Assembly: GCA_949299545.1 (NCBI GenBank) | Contig: CASGAM010000009.1 | Span: 1-51,510, forward strand | Direction: 5' to 3' | DNA from: an uncultured Prevotellaceae bacterium | GTDB lineage: Bacteria > Bacteroidota > Bacteroidia > Bacteroidales > Bacteroidaceae | DNA: 51,510 nucleotides | Shown: one piece after another, positions 7,368-12,562 of the stretch | Layout: each line of letters starts with the position of its first letter | How positions within the stretch are numbered: the stretch's first letter is position 1 | The notes under the pieces: generated by a model | Told to the model about the DNA's origin: nothing | What the model saw: the letters and a program-made list of their open reading frames with translations, nothing else | The model's database searches: none | Made by a program: the position numbers and the translations under genes

Positions 7368-8342
7368 ATGGGATTATTTAAAACACTTTTCAGCGGACAA
7401 ATGGAAAGTTCTGCCGAAAAAGAAGAAAAAAAACAAAAGCAAGATTTTGACGTTCTAAAATATGACGGCATACGGGCTTTACAAGCCGGTCAGACAGAAT
7501 TTGCAATACGTTGCCTTGAGAAAGCACTGACACTAAAAGATGATGAAGAAACAACGGAGAAACTTGCTCAAGCCTTCCTCCAAAACAGAGAAACAGAAAA
7601 AGCCTATGGTATTTTGCAAACATTGTCAAGTCAAACTGAGAATCCCCTACCAGTGTTTTTAATCATGGCTAAAATTAACGAACAAACTTTTAACTACACT
7701 AGAATGGAAAGCCTATGTGCTTCTGCCTTGGCAATCTATCCTGAAAGCGGCGAGTTATTATATTGGGCTGGTAAGGCTCAATATGCATTGGGTAATAACC
7801 TACAAGCCATCGTCTTTTTAACAAAAGCCATCGTTCATGATGAACAGCTGCAATCTGCCTACCTACTGAGAGCATCCGTTCTCCTCGACATGGGCAGTCT
7901 AAAAGAAGCGGAAATTGATGCCGATTATCTACTAACAGCATTTGATCCCACAGAAGAAGCATTGCTATTAAAAGCAAAAATTTGTTTGCAAACAGGTTCT
8001 ATTGAAACCGCTATCCTTTATTATAATAAGGTAATAAGCCATAACCCGTTTAATGAAGAAGCCTACATCGGCCTAAGCAATGCTTACACAATCAACCACC
8101 AAACTGACCGTGCGCTTGAAACCATAAACGAATTCATCGAGCTCATGCCTGAATCTGCCGAAGCATATAAAGAACGTGGACGTATAAAACTACAGCTAAA
8201 TGACAAAGCCGGTGCCATGGACGACCTGAAAAAGTCCCTCGAGTGTAGCCCTGAAGCTATGAACCAACTCAATGGTAGATTCAACAATTTAGAACAAGAA
8301 ATGAATGTACAATACAAGAACCGCAACCCATATGGTTTCTAA
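7368..8342 (+). CDS. tetratricopeptide repeat protein
   Basis: A 324-residue protein made almost entirely of helix-turn-helix TPR units. Typical TPR positions can be followed from about residue 35 to 300 (ALQAGQTEFAIRCLEKAL, AYIGLSNAYTINHQTDRALE, AYKERGRIKLQLNDKAGAM). The first 25 residues are charged and lysine-rich, and there is no signal peptide, so it probably acts as a cytoplasmic scaffold. It is alone between glmS (divergent) and the aromatic operon. No enzymatic domain is visible and the partner is unknown. Confidence 0.85.
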   Translation: MGLFKTLFSGQMESSAEKEEKKQKQDFDVLKYDGIRALQAGQTEFAIRCLEKALTLKDDEETTEKLAQAFLQNRETEKAYGILQTLSSQTENPLPVFLIMAKINEQTFNYTRMESLCASALAIYPESGELLYWAGKAQYALGNNLQAIVFLTKAIVHDEQLQSAYLLRASVLLDMGSLKEAEIDADYLLTAFDPTEEALLLKAKICLQTGSIETAILYYNKVISHNPFNEEAYIGLSNAYTINHQTDRALETINEFIELMPESAEAYKERGRIKLQLNDKAGAMDDLKKSLECSPEAMNQLNGRFNNLEQEMNVQYKNRNPYGF

Positions 8343-8407: not shown

Positions 8408-8438
8408 TTTGCAAAAAAGAAAATTATACCTAATTTTG
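8408..8438 (+). promoter_or_regulatory. promoter of the Phe/Tyr biosynthesis operon
   Basis: TTTG (8408-8411), a 19-nt spacer and TAATTTTG (8431-8438): a full match to the Bacteroidetes promoter consensus. The start near 8445 gives a leader of about 200 nt before pheA, which contains the leader peptide and the attenuator. Confidence 0.8.
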
Positions 8439-8476
8439 CACACAACAAAAAAACAAGAAACAAGCAAAAATATATA

Positions 8477-8566
8477 ATGAGAACATCATTCAGCACATAC
8501 TTTTATTTCTTCTTTTACTTTTACTTTAGCAACAAAGTGAAGCGGGAACTCGTATGTGTACAATAA
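8477..8566 (+). CDS. Phe/Tyr leader peptide of the aromatic operon
   Basis: A 29-residue ORF, ATG at 8477 and TAA at 8564-8566, too short for usual gene calling. Between codons 5 and 17 it has seven Phe and four Tyr codons; codons 8-17 are an unbroken run of these two residues (YFYFFFYFYF). The rest is unremarkable and ends VCVQ. It lies between a strong promoter and a hairpin terminator, upstream of pheA, the DAHP synthase fusion and tyrA. Its composition fits a ribosome-stalling sensor for charged tRNA-Phe and tRNA-Tyr. It is not expected to function as a protein. Confidence 0.88.
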   Translation: MRTSFSTYFYFFFYFYFSNKVKRELVCVQ

Positions 8567-8631
8567 ATGAATATAAAACAAATAAAACATAAATAAAAAA
8601 GGTCCCGCTTCATTTTGAATCGGGACCTTTT
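8519..8631 (+). promoter_or_regulatory. transcription attenuator with three alternative stems
   Basis: Stem 1:2 pairs 8519-8527 (inside the Phe/Tyr codons) with 8534-8542, nine pairs and a 6-nt loop. Stem 2:3, the antiterminator, pairs 8534-8547 with 8603-8616, fourteen pairs with one G-U. Stem 3:4, the terminator, pairs 8597-8607 with 8621-8631, plus TTCA/TGAA inside. A ribosome stalled on the Phe/Tyr run covers segment 1 and frees segment 2 to pair with 3. Rapid translation leaves segment 3 to form the terminator. Confidence 0.85.
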
Positions 8632-8634
8632 GCA
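8597..8634 (+). terminator. attenuator terminator hairpin
   Basis: AAAAGGTCCCG pairs perfectly with CGGGACCTTTT. An inner TTCA/TGAA stem continues after one mismatch. The U tract is short (TTTTGCAT), so termination may be partial. It ends 13 nt before the pheA ATG. Confidence 0.8.
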
Positions 8635-8647
8635 TAAATAAACAAAC

Positions 8648-9490
8648 ATGAAACGAATCGCAATCCAAGGAATCAAAGGCTCCTACCATGACATAGCCGC
8701 ACACTATTATTTCGACAAAGAAGACATAGAATTAATTTGCTGCTCCACCTTTGAAGAAGTGTTCGAAGTCGTTAAACAGGATAGCACTGTCATGGGAATG
8801 GTAGCTATTGAAAACACTATAGCAGGCAGTCTGTTACACAATTACGAATTACTCTGCCAAAGCAATCTCACCATTATCGGTGAACATAAACTACGTATAT
8901 CACATAGTTTAGTATGCCTACCCGAAGATAATTTAGAAGATATAACAGAAGTCAATTCCCATCCCGTAGCTCTCATGCAATGCCGTGACTTCCTAAACAA
9001 TCACCCACAATTCAAAGTCGTAGAAGGTGAAGACACAGCTGGATCTGCTGAAATTATCAGTCGTAAACATTTACGCGGCCATGCAGCCATCTGTTCTAAA
9101 TTTACGGCACCACTTTATGGCATGAAGGTATTAGAAGAAGGTATCGAAACAAACAAACATAATTTTACACGTTTTTTAGTCATCTGTCAACCACAACGTG
9201 CCAACCTTATGCGCGACATCCGCCAAGTAAATAAAGCAAGTTTAGTATTTTCGCTTCCCCATGAAGAAGGTTCACTTTCACAAGTACTGTCTATACTTTC
9301 TTTTTACAAGCAGAATCTGACAAAAATACAGTCACTTCCGTTAATTGGGAAAGAATGGCAATACATGTTTTACGTAGATCTGGCATTTGACGACTACACA
9401 CGCTATTCACAGAGTCTAGACGCAATCACCCCACTGACAAAAGAACTTAAAATATTAGGAGAGTATCAAGATGGAAGACAAACAGTATAA
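8648..9490 (+). CDS. pheA: prephenate dehydratase
   Basis: A 280-residue monofunctional prephenate dehydratase that converts prephenate to phenylpyruvate for phenylalanine synthesis. The catalytic domain occupies roughly residues 1-180 (GIKGSYHDIAA, VAIENTIAGS). A C-terminal ACT domain follows (SLVFSLPHEEGSLSQVLSIL), with IQSLP in the place of the usual ESRP feedback motif. There is no chorismate mutase domain here; that activity is fused to the DAHP synthase two genes later. It is the first structural gene after the attenuator, and its 3' end overlaps the aminotransferase by 20 nt. Confidence 0.95.
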   Translation: MKRIAIQGIKGSYHDIAAHYYFDKEDIELICCSTFEEVFEVVKQDSTVMGMVAIENTIAGSLLHNYELLCQSNLTIIGEHKLRISHSLVCLPEDNLEDITEVNSHPVALMQCRDFLNNHPQFKVVEGEDTAGSAEIISRKHLRGHAAICSKFTAPLYGMKVLEEGIETNKHNFTRFLVICQPQRANLMRDIRQVNKASLVFSLPHEEGSLSQVLSILSFYKQNLTKIQSLPLIGKEWQYMFYVDLAFDDYTRYSQSLDAITPLTKELKILGEYQDGRQTV

Positions 9491-10661
9491 CATAAATATT
9501 AAACCAGCAGATAGGCTTGCCAACGTAAAAGAATACTATTTCTCAACCAAAGGCAAGGAAATTGCAAAGCTTAACGCCGAAGGAATGGACATCATCAGTT
9601 TAGCCATCGGCAGTCCAGACATGCCACCTTCCGAGCAAACCATCGAAACTCTTTGTACACAAGCCAGACACAGCGATGTGCATGGCTATCAACCTACAAC
9701 GGGCATACCAGAGTTGCGTAAAGCTATGGCTGGATTCTACAAACGTTGGTACGATGTCGACCTAGACCCGGCCACTGAGATACAGCCACTTATAGGTTCA
9801 AAAGAAGGTATTTTGCATGTTACTTTAGCATTCGTCAATCCTGGCGAACAAGTATTAGTCCCCAATCCGGGTTACCCTACCTATACTTCACTTAACCGTA
9901 TCCTCGGTAGCGAAATCGTCACATACGATCTCACACCGGAAAATCACTGGCAACCGGATTTCGAAGCGTTGGAGAAAATGGATCTAAGCCGTGTAAAAAT
10001 AATGTGGACAAACTATCCCAATATGCCTACTGGCGCTAACGCTCGTATGGAAACCTATGAGAAATTGGTGGACTTTGCCTTACGACACAATATAATCATT
10101 GTAAATGACAACCCTTACAGTTTCATTCTCAATGAGAAGCCACTCAGCATTCTGCAAGTACCGGGAGCAAAACGATGCTGTATAGAATTCAACTCCATGA
10201 GCAAGAGTCACAACATGCCGGGGTGGCGTGTAGGCCTCCTCGCCACTAATGCTAAGTTTGTCAGCTGGATTCTGAAAGTAAAAAGTAATATTGATTCAGG
10301 AACGTTCCGTCCGATGCAGCTTGCAGCAGCAGCAGCATATGAAAATGACAAAGAATGGCATCATCAGGCGAATATCACCACTTATGCCGAACGCCGAGCA
10401 TTAGCAGAAGAAATCATGCACACATTAGGATGCAGTTTCGACTCCGAACAAGTAGGTATGTTCTTATGGGGGCGAATTCCAGATAGTTATAATGACGTGG
10501 AACAACTTACTGAAAAAGTCCTACACGAGGCTCGTGTCTTCATAACGCCGGGATTTATCTTTGGCAGCAACGGACGTCGTTACATCCGTATCTCGCTCTG
10601 TGCCAAAAAAGAAAGAATCGCTGAAGCATTAGAACGTATCCGCACCGTATTTAACAAATAG
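9471..10661 (+). CDS. PLP-dependent aminotransferase (class I/II), aromatic pathway
   Basis: A 396-residue fold-type I aminotransferase. The PLP lysine is Lys245 in SMSKSHNMPGWR, and the N-terminal GSPDMPP and the NPGYPTY and NYPNMPTG segments are standard for the family. It starts inside the last 20 nt of pheA, so the two are translationally coupled. In this operon it most likely carries out the final transamination of phenylpyruvate and 4-hydroxyphenylpyruvate, or of prephenate. Family members of this type are often labelled LL-diaminopimelate aminotransferase-like, so substrate assignment rests on context. Confidence 0.88.
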   Translation: MEDKQYNINIKPADRLANVKEYYFSTKGKEIAKLNAEGMDIISLAIGSPDMPPSEQTIETLCTQARHSDVHGYQPTTGIPELRKAMAGFYKRWYDVDLDPATEIQPLIGSKEGILHVTLAFVNPGEQVLVPNPGYPTYTSLNRILGSEIVTYDLTPENHWQPDFEALEKMDLSRVKIMWTNYPNMPTGANARMETYEKLVDFALRHNIIIVNDNPYSFILNEKPLSILQVPGAKRCCIEFNSMSKSHNMPGWRVGLLATNAKFVSWILKVKSNIDSGTFRPMQLAAAAAYENDKEWHHQANITTYAERRALAEEIMHTLGCSFDSEQVGMFLWGRIPDSYNDVEQLTEKVLHEARVFITPGFIFGSNGRRYIRISLCAKKERIAEALERIRTVFNK

Positions 10662-10705: not shown

Positions 10706-11776
10706 ATGGAACTGAATCTTTCACCATTAAATCTATCCGGCATCGATGAAACCAAACGTCCACTTGTCATTGCCGGCCCCTGCAGTGCAGAGACAGAAGA
10801 ACAAGTAATGAATACCGCACGACAATTAGCACAGAAAGGTATTAAAATATTCCGTGCAGGCGTATGGAAGCCACGTACCAAACCAGGTGGTTTTGAAGGC
10901 AAGGGTGAAGAAGCCCTCCCTTGGCTCAAACGAGTTAAAGAAGAAACAGGCATGTTGACCTCAACCGAGGTTGCAACCCCTAAGCATGTGGAATGTGCGC
11001 TCAATGCTGGTATTGATCTTTTATGGATTGGAGCACGTACCAGCGCCAATCCATTCGCAATGCAAGAACTGGCCGACTCACTCAAAGGTATAGACATCCC
11101 CGTTCTGGTTAAAAATCCAGTCAATCCAGATCTTGAACTTTGGATTGGTGCATTGGAACGTATCAACGGTGCTGGCGTCAATCGTCTTGGTGCTATCCAC
11201 CGCGGATTCTCAAGCATTGACCAAAAAATCTACCGTAACGCCCCTATGTGGCATATTCCGATCGAGCTGCATCGCAGATGTCCACAATTACCTATCTTTT
11301 GCGACCCGAGCCATATCGGCGGCCGCCGCGATCTCATCGCTCCTCTCTGCCAACAAGCTATGGACATGGGCTTCGCAGGATTGATTGTTGAAAGTCATTG
11401 CAACCCGGATGAAGCATGGAGCGATGCAAAACAACAAGTACTGCCGGATGTTCTCGATTTCATACTTGACCGCCTTGTGGTCCGCGAAAGCAGTGAGTTA
11501 ACCGAAAGCCTTGCAGCCCTACGTAAACAAATCGATGAGTTAGATAACGAACTGATGAACCTGTTAACGAAACGTATGCGTGTGAGCCGCGAAATCGCTG
11601 TTTACAAAAAAGAACACAATATGGCTGTCGTGCAAACCGGACGCTATTCGGAAATCCTTGAAAAACGAGGCGCACAAGGTGTACTTTGTGGTATGGATGC
11701 AGACTTCATCAAAAAAATCTACGAAGCCATTCACGAAGAAAGTGTCAGACAACAAACGGAACTTATCAATAAATAA
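10706..11776 (+). CDS. aroF: bifunctional DAHP synthase / chorismate mutase
   Basis: A 356-residue fusion. Residues 1 to about 255 are a type I (KDO8P-synthase-like) DAHP synthase: VIAGPCSAETEEQ, KPRTKPGGFEGKG, then the metal-site CDPSHIGG and ESHCNPDEAWSD. Residues 265-350 are an AroQ-type chorismate mutase (LRKQIDELDNELMNLLTKRM). The enzyme thus feeds the shikimate pathway and also makes prephenate, the substrate of PheA and TyrA on either side. In related fusions the mutase domain is the allosteric sensor for the end product. The gene symbol is used loosely: aroF, aroG and aroA are all applied to this fusion. Confidence 0.95.
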   Translation: MELNLSPLNLSGIDETKRPLVIAGPCSAETEEQVMNTARQLAQKGIKIFRAGVWKPRTKPGGFEGKGEEALPWLKRVKEETGMLTSTEVATPKHVECALNAGIDLLWIGARTSANPFAMQELADSLKGIDIPVLVKNPVNPDLELWIGALERINGAGVNRLGAIHRGFSSIDQKIYRNAPMWHIPIELHRRCPQLPIFCDPSHIGGRRDLIAPLCQQAMDMGFAGLIVESHCNPDEAWSDAKQQVLPDVLDFILDRLVVRESSELTESLAALRKQIDELDNELMNLLTKRMRVSREIAVYKKEHNMAVVQTGRYSEILEKRGAQGVLCGMDADFIKKIYEAIHEESVRQQTELINK

Positions 11777-11788
11777 GCATTTGCAGAA

Positions 11789-12562
11789 ATGAGAATATTA
11801 GTTTTAGGAGCAGGAAAAATGGGATCGTTCTTTGTTGACCTCCTCAGTTTTGAACATGAAATGGCTGTTTATGAAATTGATTCCAAAAGAATGCGTTTCC
11901 TCTACAATACCCAACGCTTTACTTCGATTGACGAAATCGACGCTTTCAAGCCGGAATTAGTCATCAATGCAGTAACATTGAAATACACGCTTGAAATATT
12001 CAATCAAGTTATTCCACACCTGCCAAAAGACTGTATCCTGAGTGATATATCATCCGTAAAGACAGGTTTCAAGGAATTTTACGAGAATACAGGCATGCGC
12101 TACGTAAGTACGCATCCCATGTTTGGACCGACATTTGCTAACCTTGGAAGCCTCAGCAACGAAAATGCCATCATCATCAATGAAGGTGATTACATGGGAC
12201 GTATTTTCTTCCGCGACCTCTATAATCGTTTGGGATTGCATATTTGCGAATATTCATTCGACGAACACGACGAGACAATGGCGTACTCACTCAGTATTCC
12301 TTTTGTGTCGACGTTTGTATTCGCTGCGGTAATGAAACATCAAGACGCACCAGGTACGACATTCAAACGTCATCTGAAAATAGCACATGGTGTACTCGGA
12401 GAAGACGACTGCCTGTTAAGAGAGATTCTCTTTAATCCGCGAACGAAAAAGCAAGTAGCCCGTGTACGTGAAGAATTGAAAAGTCTTATATCTATCATAG
12501 ACAATCATGATGAAGAGGCCTTGAATAATTATTTAACTCGTATCCGCGAAAATGTTAAATAA
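11789..12562 (+). CDS. tyrA: prephenate dehydrogenase
   Basis: A 257-residue NAD(P)-dependent prephenate dehydrogenase that makes 4-hydroxyphenylpyruvate for tyrosine. The Rossmann motif VLGAGKMGSFF is at the N-terminus. STHPMFGPTF, with the conserved histidine, follows near residues 110-120, and a helical dimerisation domain completes it. It has no ACT or chorismate mutase domain. It is the last gene of the operon, 12 nt after the fusion gene. Its presence explains why the leader peptide contains Tyr as well as Phe codons. Confidence 0.93.
   Translation: MRILVLGAGKMGSFFVDLLSFEHEMAVYEIDSKRMRFLYNTQRFTSIDEIDAFKPELVINAVTLKYTLEIFNQVIPHLPKDCILSDISSVKTGFKEFYENTGMRYVSTHPMFGPTFANLGSLSNENAIIINEGDYMGRIFFRDLYNRLGLHICEYSFDEHDETMAYSLSIPFVSTFVFAAVMKHQDAPGTTFKRHLKIAHGVLGEDDCLLREILFNPRTKKQVARVREELKSLISIIDNHDEEALNNYLTRIRENVK

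Follow-up and report, generated by a model that had tools for sequence, protein, structure and literature searches.

The stretch analysed here, referred to as the window, comprises 51,510 nucleotides (nt) of contig CASGAM010000009.1 from an uncultured Prevotellaceae bacterium (assembly GCA_949299545.1), and our subject is the leader of its pheA operon. The 305 bases between a TPR gene that ends at 8342 and pheA (8648-9490) hold a complete leader, which is very probably a ribosome-mediated transcription attenuator of the trp/phe type that reads the supply of phenylalanine (Phe) and tyrosine (Tyr). The features of the locus are listed below with the basis of each assignment; stems are named by the segments that pair (1:2, 2:3 and 3:4).

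8408-8438, + strand: promoter of Bacteroides type, TTTG at 8408-8411, 19 nt, then TAATTTTG at 8431-8438 (sequence)
8477-8566, + strand: predicted leader peptide open reading frame (ORF) MRTSFSTYFYFFFYFYFSNKVKRELVCVQ, 29 codons and TAA, with ATG at 8477-8479 and stop at 8564-8566 (sequence; leaders of kin)
8493-8500, + strand: outer (closing) helix of the protector hairpin, 5' strand, pairing with 8552-8559 (minimum-energy fold, swap tests)
8498-8527, + strand: control codons, codons 8-17, ten Phe or Tyr in an unbroken row (sequence; shuffles)
8519-8527, + strand: segment 1, 5' strand of the inner helix, in the last codons of the run, with an identical copy at 8513-8521 as alternative register (nine pairs with 8534-8542)
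8534-8542, + strand: 3' strand of the inner helix, overlapping segment 2 (pairing, fold)
8538-8547, + strand: segment 2, antiterminator 5' strand, forming a conserved ten-pair core with 8603-8612 (alignment, swap tests)
8552-8559, + strand: outer helix of the protector hairpin, 3' strand (minimum-energy fold, swap tests)
8597-8607, + strand: terminator 5' arm, pairing with 8621-8631 (alignment)
8603-8612, + strand: segment 3 core, antiterminator 3' strand, its first part within the terminator 5' arm (alignment, swap tests)
8621-8635, + strand: terminator 3' arm (8621-8631) and a short T-tract (pairing, alignment)
8648-9490, + strand: pheA, prephenate dehydratase (PF00800, E = 1.1e-56)
9471-10661, + strand: class I/II aminotransferase (PF00155, E = 2.1e-60)
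10706-11776, + strand: DAHP synthase-chorismate mutase (PF00793 and PF01817)
11789-12562, + strand: prephenate dehydrogenase, tyrA (PF02153, E = 1e-9)

Promoter, leader peptide and operon

An earlier sequence-only reading of this DNA had claimed a consensus promoter, a leader peptide rich in Phe and Tyr codons and three mutually exclusive stems ahead of pheA. The promoter is borne out in the Bacteroides form, TTTG/TAnnTTTG. In all 79 leaders of the close set described below a TAnnTTTG box stands no more than 140 nt ahead of the leader ATG, against 5.5% of shuffles, and the full TTTG-N18-22-TAnnTTTG arrangement occurs in 27 of the 79, against 0.15% of shuffles. Between 8000 and 9000, a scan for E. 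coli sigma-70 promoters returned nothing on the leader strand and a single minus-strand site, with none at the leader; an E. coli-type promoter was rejected here, the Bacteroides-type box accounting for the promoter.

Direct reading of the sequence confirmed the 29-codon ORF with nothing other than Phe and Tyr at codons 8-17. When the 450 nt before pheA were shuffled 5,000 times with dinucleotides preserved, the best short ORF reached at most seven aromatic residues in ten codons, against the ten observed. The genes downstream belong to the Phe/Tyr branch, as had been claimed for an operon that makes both amino acids, and the run of Phe/Tyr codons ahead of them is retained in relatives; translation of the ORF is predicted. 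The aminotransferase ORF as listed begins within the end of pheA (9471-9490), and translational coupling would be possible there. The DAHP synthase of the operon feeds tryptophan (Trp) as well.

Distribution among relatives

Relatives were compared at several distances. The close set consists of the best 80 of 514 PheA loci, 79 of them usable (L012, with only 5 nt upstream, was dropped); nearly all are Bacteroidales (Paraprevotella, Phocaeicola, Bacteroides, Prevotellaceae and relatives), and one, L010, is titled Clostridium sp. To avoid selection by similarity, an order set was drawn from 60 sampled genomes, 30 of which have PheA, 29 besides our own. A phylum sample of 148 genomes, 128 with PheA, contributed 32 genomes of the same class besides our own, all of which were examined, and 95 outside the class, of which 37 were examined; the class was grouped by kinship and is presumably Bacteroidia. 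The distant set of 29 leaders includes three loci from outside the class (L082, L096 and L111).

A leader with at least seven Phe/Tyr in ten codons precedes pheA in 78 of the 79 usable close loci. In the order set, a leader with at least six aromatics in ten codons was found at 27 of 29 Bacteroidales loci; the PheA matches of the two misses start at residue 21 or 26, so that the true start is perhaps out of view. A hairpin with a T-tract was called in all 27 of these leaders, that of L219 consisting of five A-T pairs only. Same-class genomes with PheA carry the leader in 27 of 32 cases. Among the five that do not, two from one genus have the end of aroA upstream, as read by eye, two from another genus have a divergent PheA, and one is unexplained. 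Outside the class, three of the 37 genomes examined have it, at the three loci named above. An alignment of the regions upstream of pheA had been proposed as a check on the sequence-only reading, and on the first count, retention of the Phe/Tyr run, these numbers bear it out.

Some loci deserve separate mention. L066, the sole close locus with upstream DNA and no leader, has an open frame spanning most of the 450 nt before pheA, and it was left out of later work on the close set. L113 (G072) apparently has two tandem aromatic leader ORFs before pheA. A PheA match was found in just 30 of the 60 genomes of the order sample; the rest may be auxotrophs or use a different enzyme.

The composition of the run differs along its length. 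Its last four codons read TAC TTT TAC TTT in 307 of 316 cells (79 leaders), and from the sixth run codon further back the third base is T or C, both common, with exchange between Phe and Tyr. This pattern fits two constraints: upstream, any Phe/Tyr codon serves, while the RNA sequence of the inner stem is fixed. Both amino acids occur in the run in every leader modelled (75 of 75 close, 29 of 29 distant). Trp occurs in the run in nine of the 29 distant leaders and in no close leader. Single Trp codons in or beside the Phe/Tyr run were seen in the distant relatives L083, L086-L088, L090-L092, L097, L098, L104, L107, L108 and L112. The end of the ORF also varies: in 28 of the 79 close leaders it falls just before the core of segment 2, and in 51 the ORF continues across segment 2. 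The window's stop codon starts 17 nt past that segment.

Pairing of the leader RNA

A pair-by-pair check found the claimed coordinates and pair counts of the three stems (nine, fourteen and eleven) to be exact: 1:2 joins 8519-8527 to 8534-8542 in nine pairs, two of them G-U; 2:3 joins 8534-8547 to 8603-8616 in fourteen, one of them G-U; and 3:4 joins 8597-8607 to 8621-8631 in eleven Watson-Crick pairs. The leader RNA folds at -40.3 kcal/mol (z = -5.85), and none of 200 shuffles folds as low.

The terminator covaries. In 37 aligned leaders 87.7% of its cells are paired, five pairs have changed on both sides, and none of 500 shuffles reaches the covariation score. With this covarying hairpin and a T-tract before pheA, termination is predicted. 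After the stem, 6-8 T in 8 nt are found in 65 of 75 close and 25 of 29 distant leaders. A simple terminator scan, limited to loops of 3-8 nt, missed 3:4 with its 13-nt loop.

The antiterminator competes with the terminator for bases 8603-8607. Its ten-pair core is paired in 90.2% of cells of the 37 aligned leaders, and one A-U pair has become G-C in seven sequences; the outermost four of the fourteen claimed pairs (8534-8537 with 8613-8616) are paired in only 30.2% of cells of the same leaders, so that the claim stands for the core and not for its outer end. In swap tests, which compare each leader's own partner strand with partners taken from others after identity filters, own partners excelled with z = 4.6 (28 close leaders), 8.8 (25 distant) and 11.0 (27 order), none of 5,000 permutations doing as well in any set; L225 and L232 were excluded from the order-set swap tests and from the order-set geometry given below. 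In a chimera test of 27 leaders, from which the near-duplicates L105, L092 and L093 had been removed, the own terminator paired above 0.8 in 24 (median 0.99), against a median of 0.37 for chimeras. Among 702 chimeras 29% also exceeded 0.8, and the own terminator ranked top in just 14 of the 27. We put the pairing of these chimeras down to a CCCG core common to many lineages.

The stem that would hold segment 2 away from segment 3 is longer than the 1:2 stem first described. The minimum-energy fold adds an outer helix (8493-8500 with 8552-8559), and own partners again outpaired swapped ones, with z = 4.5 (34 close leaders), 4.0 (26 distant) and 5.3 (27 order) and 0 of 5,000 permutations in each set. 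In the close set the windows initially chosen gave z = 3.6 and 1 of 5,000 (47 leaders), and the values above followed after the windows had been altered; the order-set test reused the distant-set windows unchanged and is thus an independent repeat. In a gap-free alignment of 24 leaders, 87.5% of the cells of the outer helix are paired and all its pairs vary. Given this support, the protecting hairpin is predicted to be long: its closing helix begins five bases ahead of the run, and most of the control codons would be enclosed. The 1:2 stem of the sequence-only reading therefore survives as the inner part of this hairpin, although the covarying helix that closes it was absent from that reading.

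The register of 1:2 is not fixed, because TTTTACTTT is present twice in the run. The nine pairs were found as claimed, but when the full leader is folded to minimum energy it is the other copy that pairs (8513-8521 with 8534-8542 rather than 8519-8527), and the alignment consensus lies close to 8519-8527.

A conserved pause-like motif after segment 2 (GG, 8 nt, pyrimidine-G) was considered and is not claimed. The pyrimidine-G stands at a fixed distance in 65 of 79 close leaders, and the motif is found in 16 of 29 distant leaders against 5.9 in shuffles. The motif shares bases with the outer helix (3' strand), and in L010 and L057 the pyrimidine-G is gone although a pairing between the pre-run stretch and the tail stays; for these reasons we leave it aside.

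Modelled position of the ribosome relative to the stems

The ribosome was modelled as a footprint from 15 nt upstream to 12 nt downstream of the first A-site base. It was placed on every codon, and the transcript was folded as it would be before the synthesis of segment 4, an approach adopted after the result for the full-length RNA at equilibrium had been seen. The close leaders L016, L036, L052 and L077, in which the ORF finder took another frame, were left out of the folding, as was L113.

With segment 4 unmade, 73 of the 75 close leaders and 28 of the 29 distant ones have at least one aromatic codon at which 2:3 exceeded 0.7; in the order set, 23 of 27 leaders pass that value with the ribosome on the final aromatic codon. 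The ribosome first blocks 2:3 at 1-3 codons beyond the final aromatic one in 63 of the 75 leaders of the close set, in 24 of the 29 distant ones and in 16 of the 27 of the order set; on the same measure, runs placed at random within the ORF gave means of 12.4 (close), 5.4 (distant) and 5.8 (order). Because the close leaders are related to one another, the distant and order sets are the fairer ones for geometry. In most leaders the end of the run would thus be where the ribosome begins to touch the antiterminator strand, despite the variation of that strand's sequence among lineages. In these models a stalled ribosome frees segment 2 and an advancing one covers it; in the window, segment 2 is blocked while the ribosome is on codons 19-28.

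Proposed mechanism and alternatives

Sequence comparison supports the leader ORF, its codons, the terminator, the antiterminator and the outer helix, and the support for the ribosome geometry comes from folding models. The attenuator reading, in which tRNA charging would be the signal and both amino acids would be sensed, runs as follows. RNA polymerase would start near 8444, with a ribosome translating the leader close behind. When charged Phe- or Tyr-tRNA is scarce, the ribosome would dwell on codons 8-17 and open the protector hairpin, leaving segment 2 (8538-8547) free; it would then pair with segment 3 ahead of the synthesis of segment 4, no terminator would form, and the genes from pheA to tyrA would be transcribed. 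When supply is good, the ribosome would move on and cover segment 2, which in the model it does on codons 19-28; segment 3 would then pair with segment 4, and transcription would stop near 8632. Without translation of the leader, segment 2 may be held in the long 8493-8559 hairpin. We infer this order of folding and the role of the protector hairpin.

The sequence-only reading had likewise proposed an attenuator, and the retained Phe/Tyr run and the covarying terminator and antiterminator speak for it; the joint loss in relatives of the run and of compensatory change, which it had named as telling against it, was not seen. Several observations nevertheless weigh against the mechanism as set out here. 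At full-length equilibrium only 14 of the 75 close leaders and seven of the 29 distant ones have an aromatic stall at which the terminator drops under 0.3, the window itself reaching 0.11 at codon 13; since the terminator wins in most relatives under these conditions, the switch must act during RNA synthesis. In the window, segment 2 becomes free again once the ribosome stands on codon 29 or on the stop codon (2:3 at 1.0), the stop-codon median of 2:3 for the close set is 0.88, and 2:3 also forms at 1.0 in the window with no ribosome and segment 4 unmade. The states of rich supply and of an untranslated leader therefore rest on timing. For termination in the window, either the polymerase would have to get past segment 4 during the ribosome's stay on codons 19-28, or the protector would have to close behind the ribosome. 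Two leaders, L085 and L219, have no antiterminator in the model. Column-wise covariation is only moderate for the whole 14-pair 2:3 structure (its score reached by 17 of 500 shuffles) and for the outer helix (15 of 500), and the T-tract of the window is weak, five of the 8 nt that follow the last G-C pair being T.

The inner 1:2 stem lacks a covariation signal in close relatives, which also weighs against the mechanism. Covariation of all three stems had been proposed as a check; the terminator and the antiterminator covary, but the score of the inner stem in the 37 aligned leaders is reached by 207 of 500 shuffles, its sequence being nearly invariant. In the swap test its own partners did no better than others in the close set, where only ten leaders remained and power was low (1047 of 5,000), and the signal in the distant set was weak (23 leaders, 147 of 5,000).

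Some of these points would suit a simpler switch of two states, in which no protector hairpin acts and the ribosome is itself the gate: over segment 2 it would cause termination, and stalled or absent it would allow readthrough. The inner stem without covariation and the antiterminator that forms fully in the window before segment 4 is made are what such a switch would lead one to expect, and a ribosome at the stop often blocks 2:3, the median being 0.32 for the distant leaders and 0.33 for those of the order set. Against such a switch, the outer helix outpairs swapped partners in three sets, the inner stem is paired in 97.3% of cells, and the full-length window RNA, folded with no ribosome on it, has the terminator at 0.85 and 2:3 near 0. 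We regard a switch without the protector as possible but doubtful.

Control of translation, with the 3:4 hairpin masking the start region of pheA and transcription continuing, is improbable. The hairpin of the window ends 16 nt before pheA, and the accessible part of PMC7366714 describes start sites of Bacteroidota as lacking Shine-Dalgarno sequences, so that structure near a start may matter; yet the distance from hairpin to gene ranges from 9 to 107 nt in the 75 close leaders and from 12 to 235 nt in the 29 distant ones (for which the protein match defines where the gene begins), and the 6-8 T after the stem are kept in the large majority of leaders counted above.

A still smaller chance attaches to a peptide that acts in trans or, being aromatic and hydrophobic, in the membrane, with the terminator merely ending its own small gene. 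The ORF is conserved, its Phe/Tyr run is hydrophobic, and PMC7298713, in the part available to us, reports on a leader peptide that acts in trans; against this, length (18-34), tail and the order of Phe and Tyr all vary while the pairing of segments 2 and 3 is kept, and segment 2 is retained both in the leaders that stop before its core and in those that read through it. Least likely of all is a metabolite- or tRNA-binding riboswitch (a T-box or an amino-acid riboswitch), which a structured 5' leader ahead of an amino-acid operon might bring to mind, but no Rfam match was found in the window or in 11 related loci and the Phe/Tyr codons are conserved in frame.

The attenuator reading thus remains the best explanation. 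The mechanism as such is known; what would be new is the Phe and Tyr specificity, the protector hairpin predicted around most of the run, the continuation of the ORF across segment 2 in one large group, and the class-wide conservation in a phylum without Shine-Dalgarno starts. On balance we lean slightly towards a wider interpretation, in which this is an ancient, class-wide Phe and Tyr attenuator of Bacteroidia that belongs to a larger set of leaders (histidine (His), branched-chain and Trp) and has a protector that senses dwelling along the whole run. Because the helix closing the protector begins before the control run, the switch would gauge ribosome dwell anywhere on it; the His and branched-chain leaders would share the antiterminator layout and the Trp leaders would have a terminator, and supply would be read without Shine-Dalgarno starts.

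If this is true, the leading ribosome and RNA polymerase must stay close over the first 150-200 nt in Bacteroidota. As attenuation works only with a ribosome close behind the polymerase, transcription-translation coupling in this phylum becomes testable at a defined site. Operons of this kind would also gain a specificity for Phe and Tyr, sometimes Trp, and attention is drawn to small ORFs that gene finders likely miss. In gut commensals, the leader could be put to use as it stands to sense amino acids.

Relation to known systems

The leader-peptide attenuators of E. coli pheA and trp are the textbook cases of this mechanism, and that of E. coli pheA senses Phe only. The leader described here resembles them in having an ORF with tandem control codons, an operon that makes the sensed amino acid, and a terminator with a mutually exclusive antiterminator. 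Unlike them, it mixes Phe and Tyr in its run, has a Bacteroides-type promoter and matches no Rfam family, its ORF passes through segment 2, and the helix closing its protector would begin before the run. In enterobacteria, the ilvGMEDA and thr leaders carry control codons for several product amino acids in one leader, and so does the leader in the window, but for other amino acids, with Phe and Tyr interleaved in a single run and, in nine of the 29 distant leaders, Trp in the run too.

Candidate attenuators in Bacteroidetes/Chlorobi were reportedly listed by Vitreschak and others (2004). The remark of the sequence-only reading that attenuation is little described in Bacteroidetes is fair, but it is not undescribed: in Flavobacterium psychrophilum, according to the accessible part of PMC9723704, there are strong clues to leader-peptide attenuation ahead of amino-acid operons. 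The same part describes a conserved structured 5' element before pheA in Flavobacteriaceae with no Rfam match, which agrees with our leader in phylum, gene and the absence of an Rfam match and differs in being known there as a structured element, with no leader sequence, codons or stems given in that part. In Bacteroides thetaiotaomicron, the available portion of PMC7366714 likens putative leader-like small ORFs in long 5' untranslated regions to attenuation leaders; these are short ORFs in a relative, as ours is, but the one named is BT_4401 and not pheA. The searchable part of PMC2965389 holds no word beginning with 'bacteroid'. In the open literature we found no description of a Phe/Tyr leader before pheA in Bacteroidota, most subscription papers lying outside that search. 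In the window no Rfam family reaches its gathering score, and a scan of 11 related loci (six His, Trp or Val leader loci together with L152, L001, L035, L088 and L103) gave no match.

Other amino-acid leaders in the genus and order

His-rich leaders such as MKNIATRHHHHPNG, with a terminator and a complementary antiterminator strand, precede hisG at 11 of 13 loci (L151 and L153-L162), and partner swapping supports the His antiterminator (2 of 2,000 permutations, with relatives unfiltered). Leader ORFs rich in valine (Val), with a terminator and a complementary strand, precede ilvD at three of 15 loci (L177, L179 and L188); they were seen in three order-level genomes and not in the genus. A leader before homoserine dehydrogenase (thr) was looked for at 13 loci and not seen.

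ORFs with Trp-Trp-Trp followed by a terminator lie upstream of the TrpE match at 11 of 12 loci (L164, L165 and L167-L175). The 34 nt that follow the Trp codons were searched for an antiterminator and none was found, 1824 of 2,000 permutations being as good. In our own genome (L175, G000:C37) the Trp leader is about 1.45 kb upstream of the TrpE match, with an intervening stretch between them. L167 has two Trp leaders in tandem, at -370 and -207 as counted from the TrpE domain match, and each of them has a terminator of its own.

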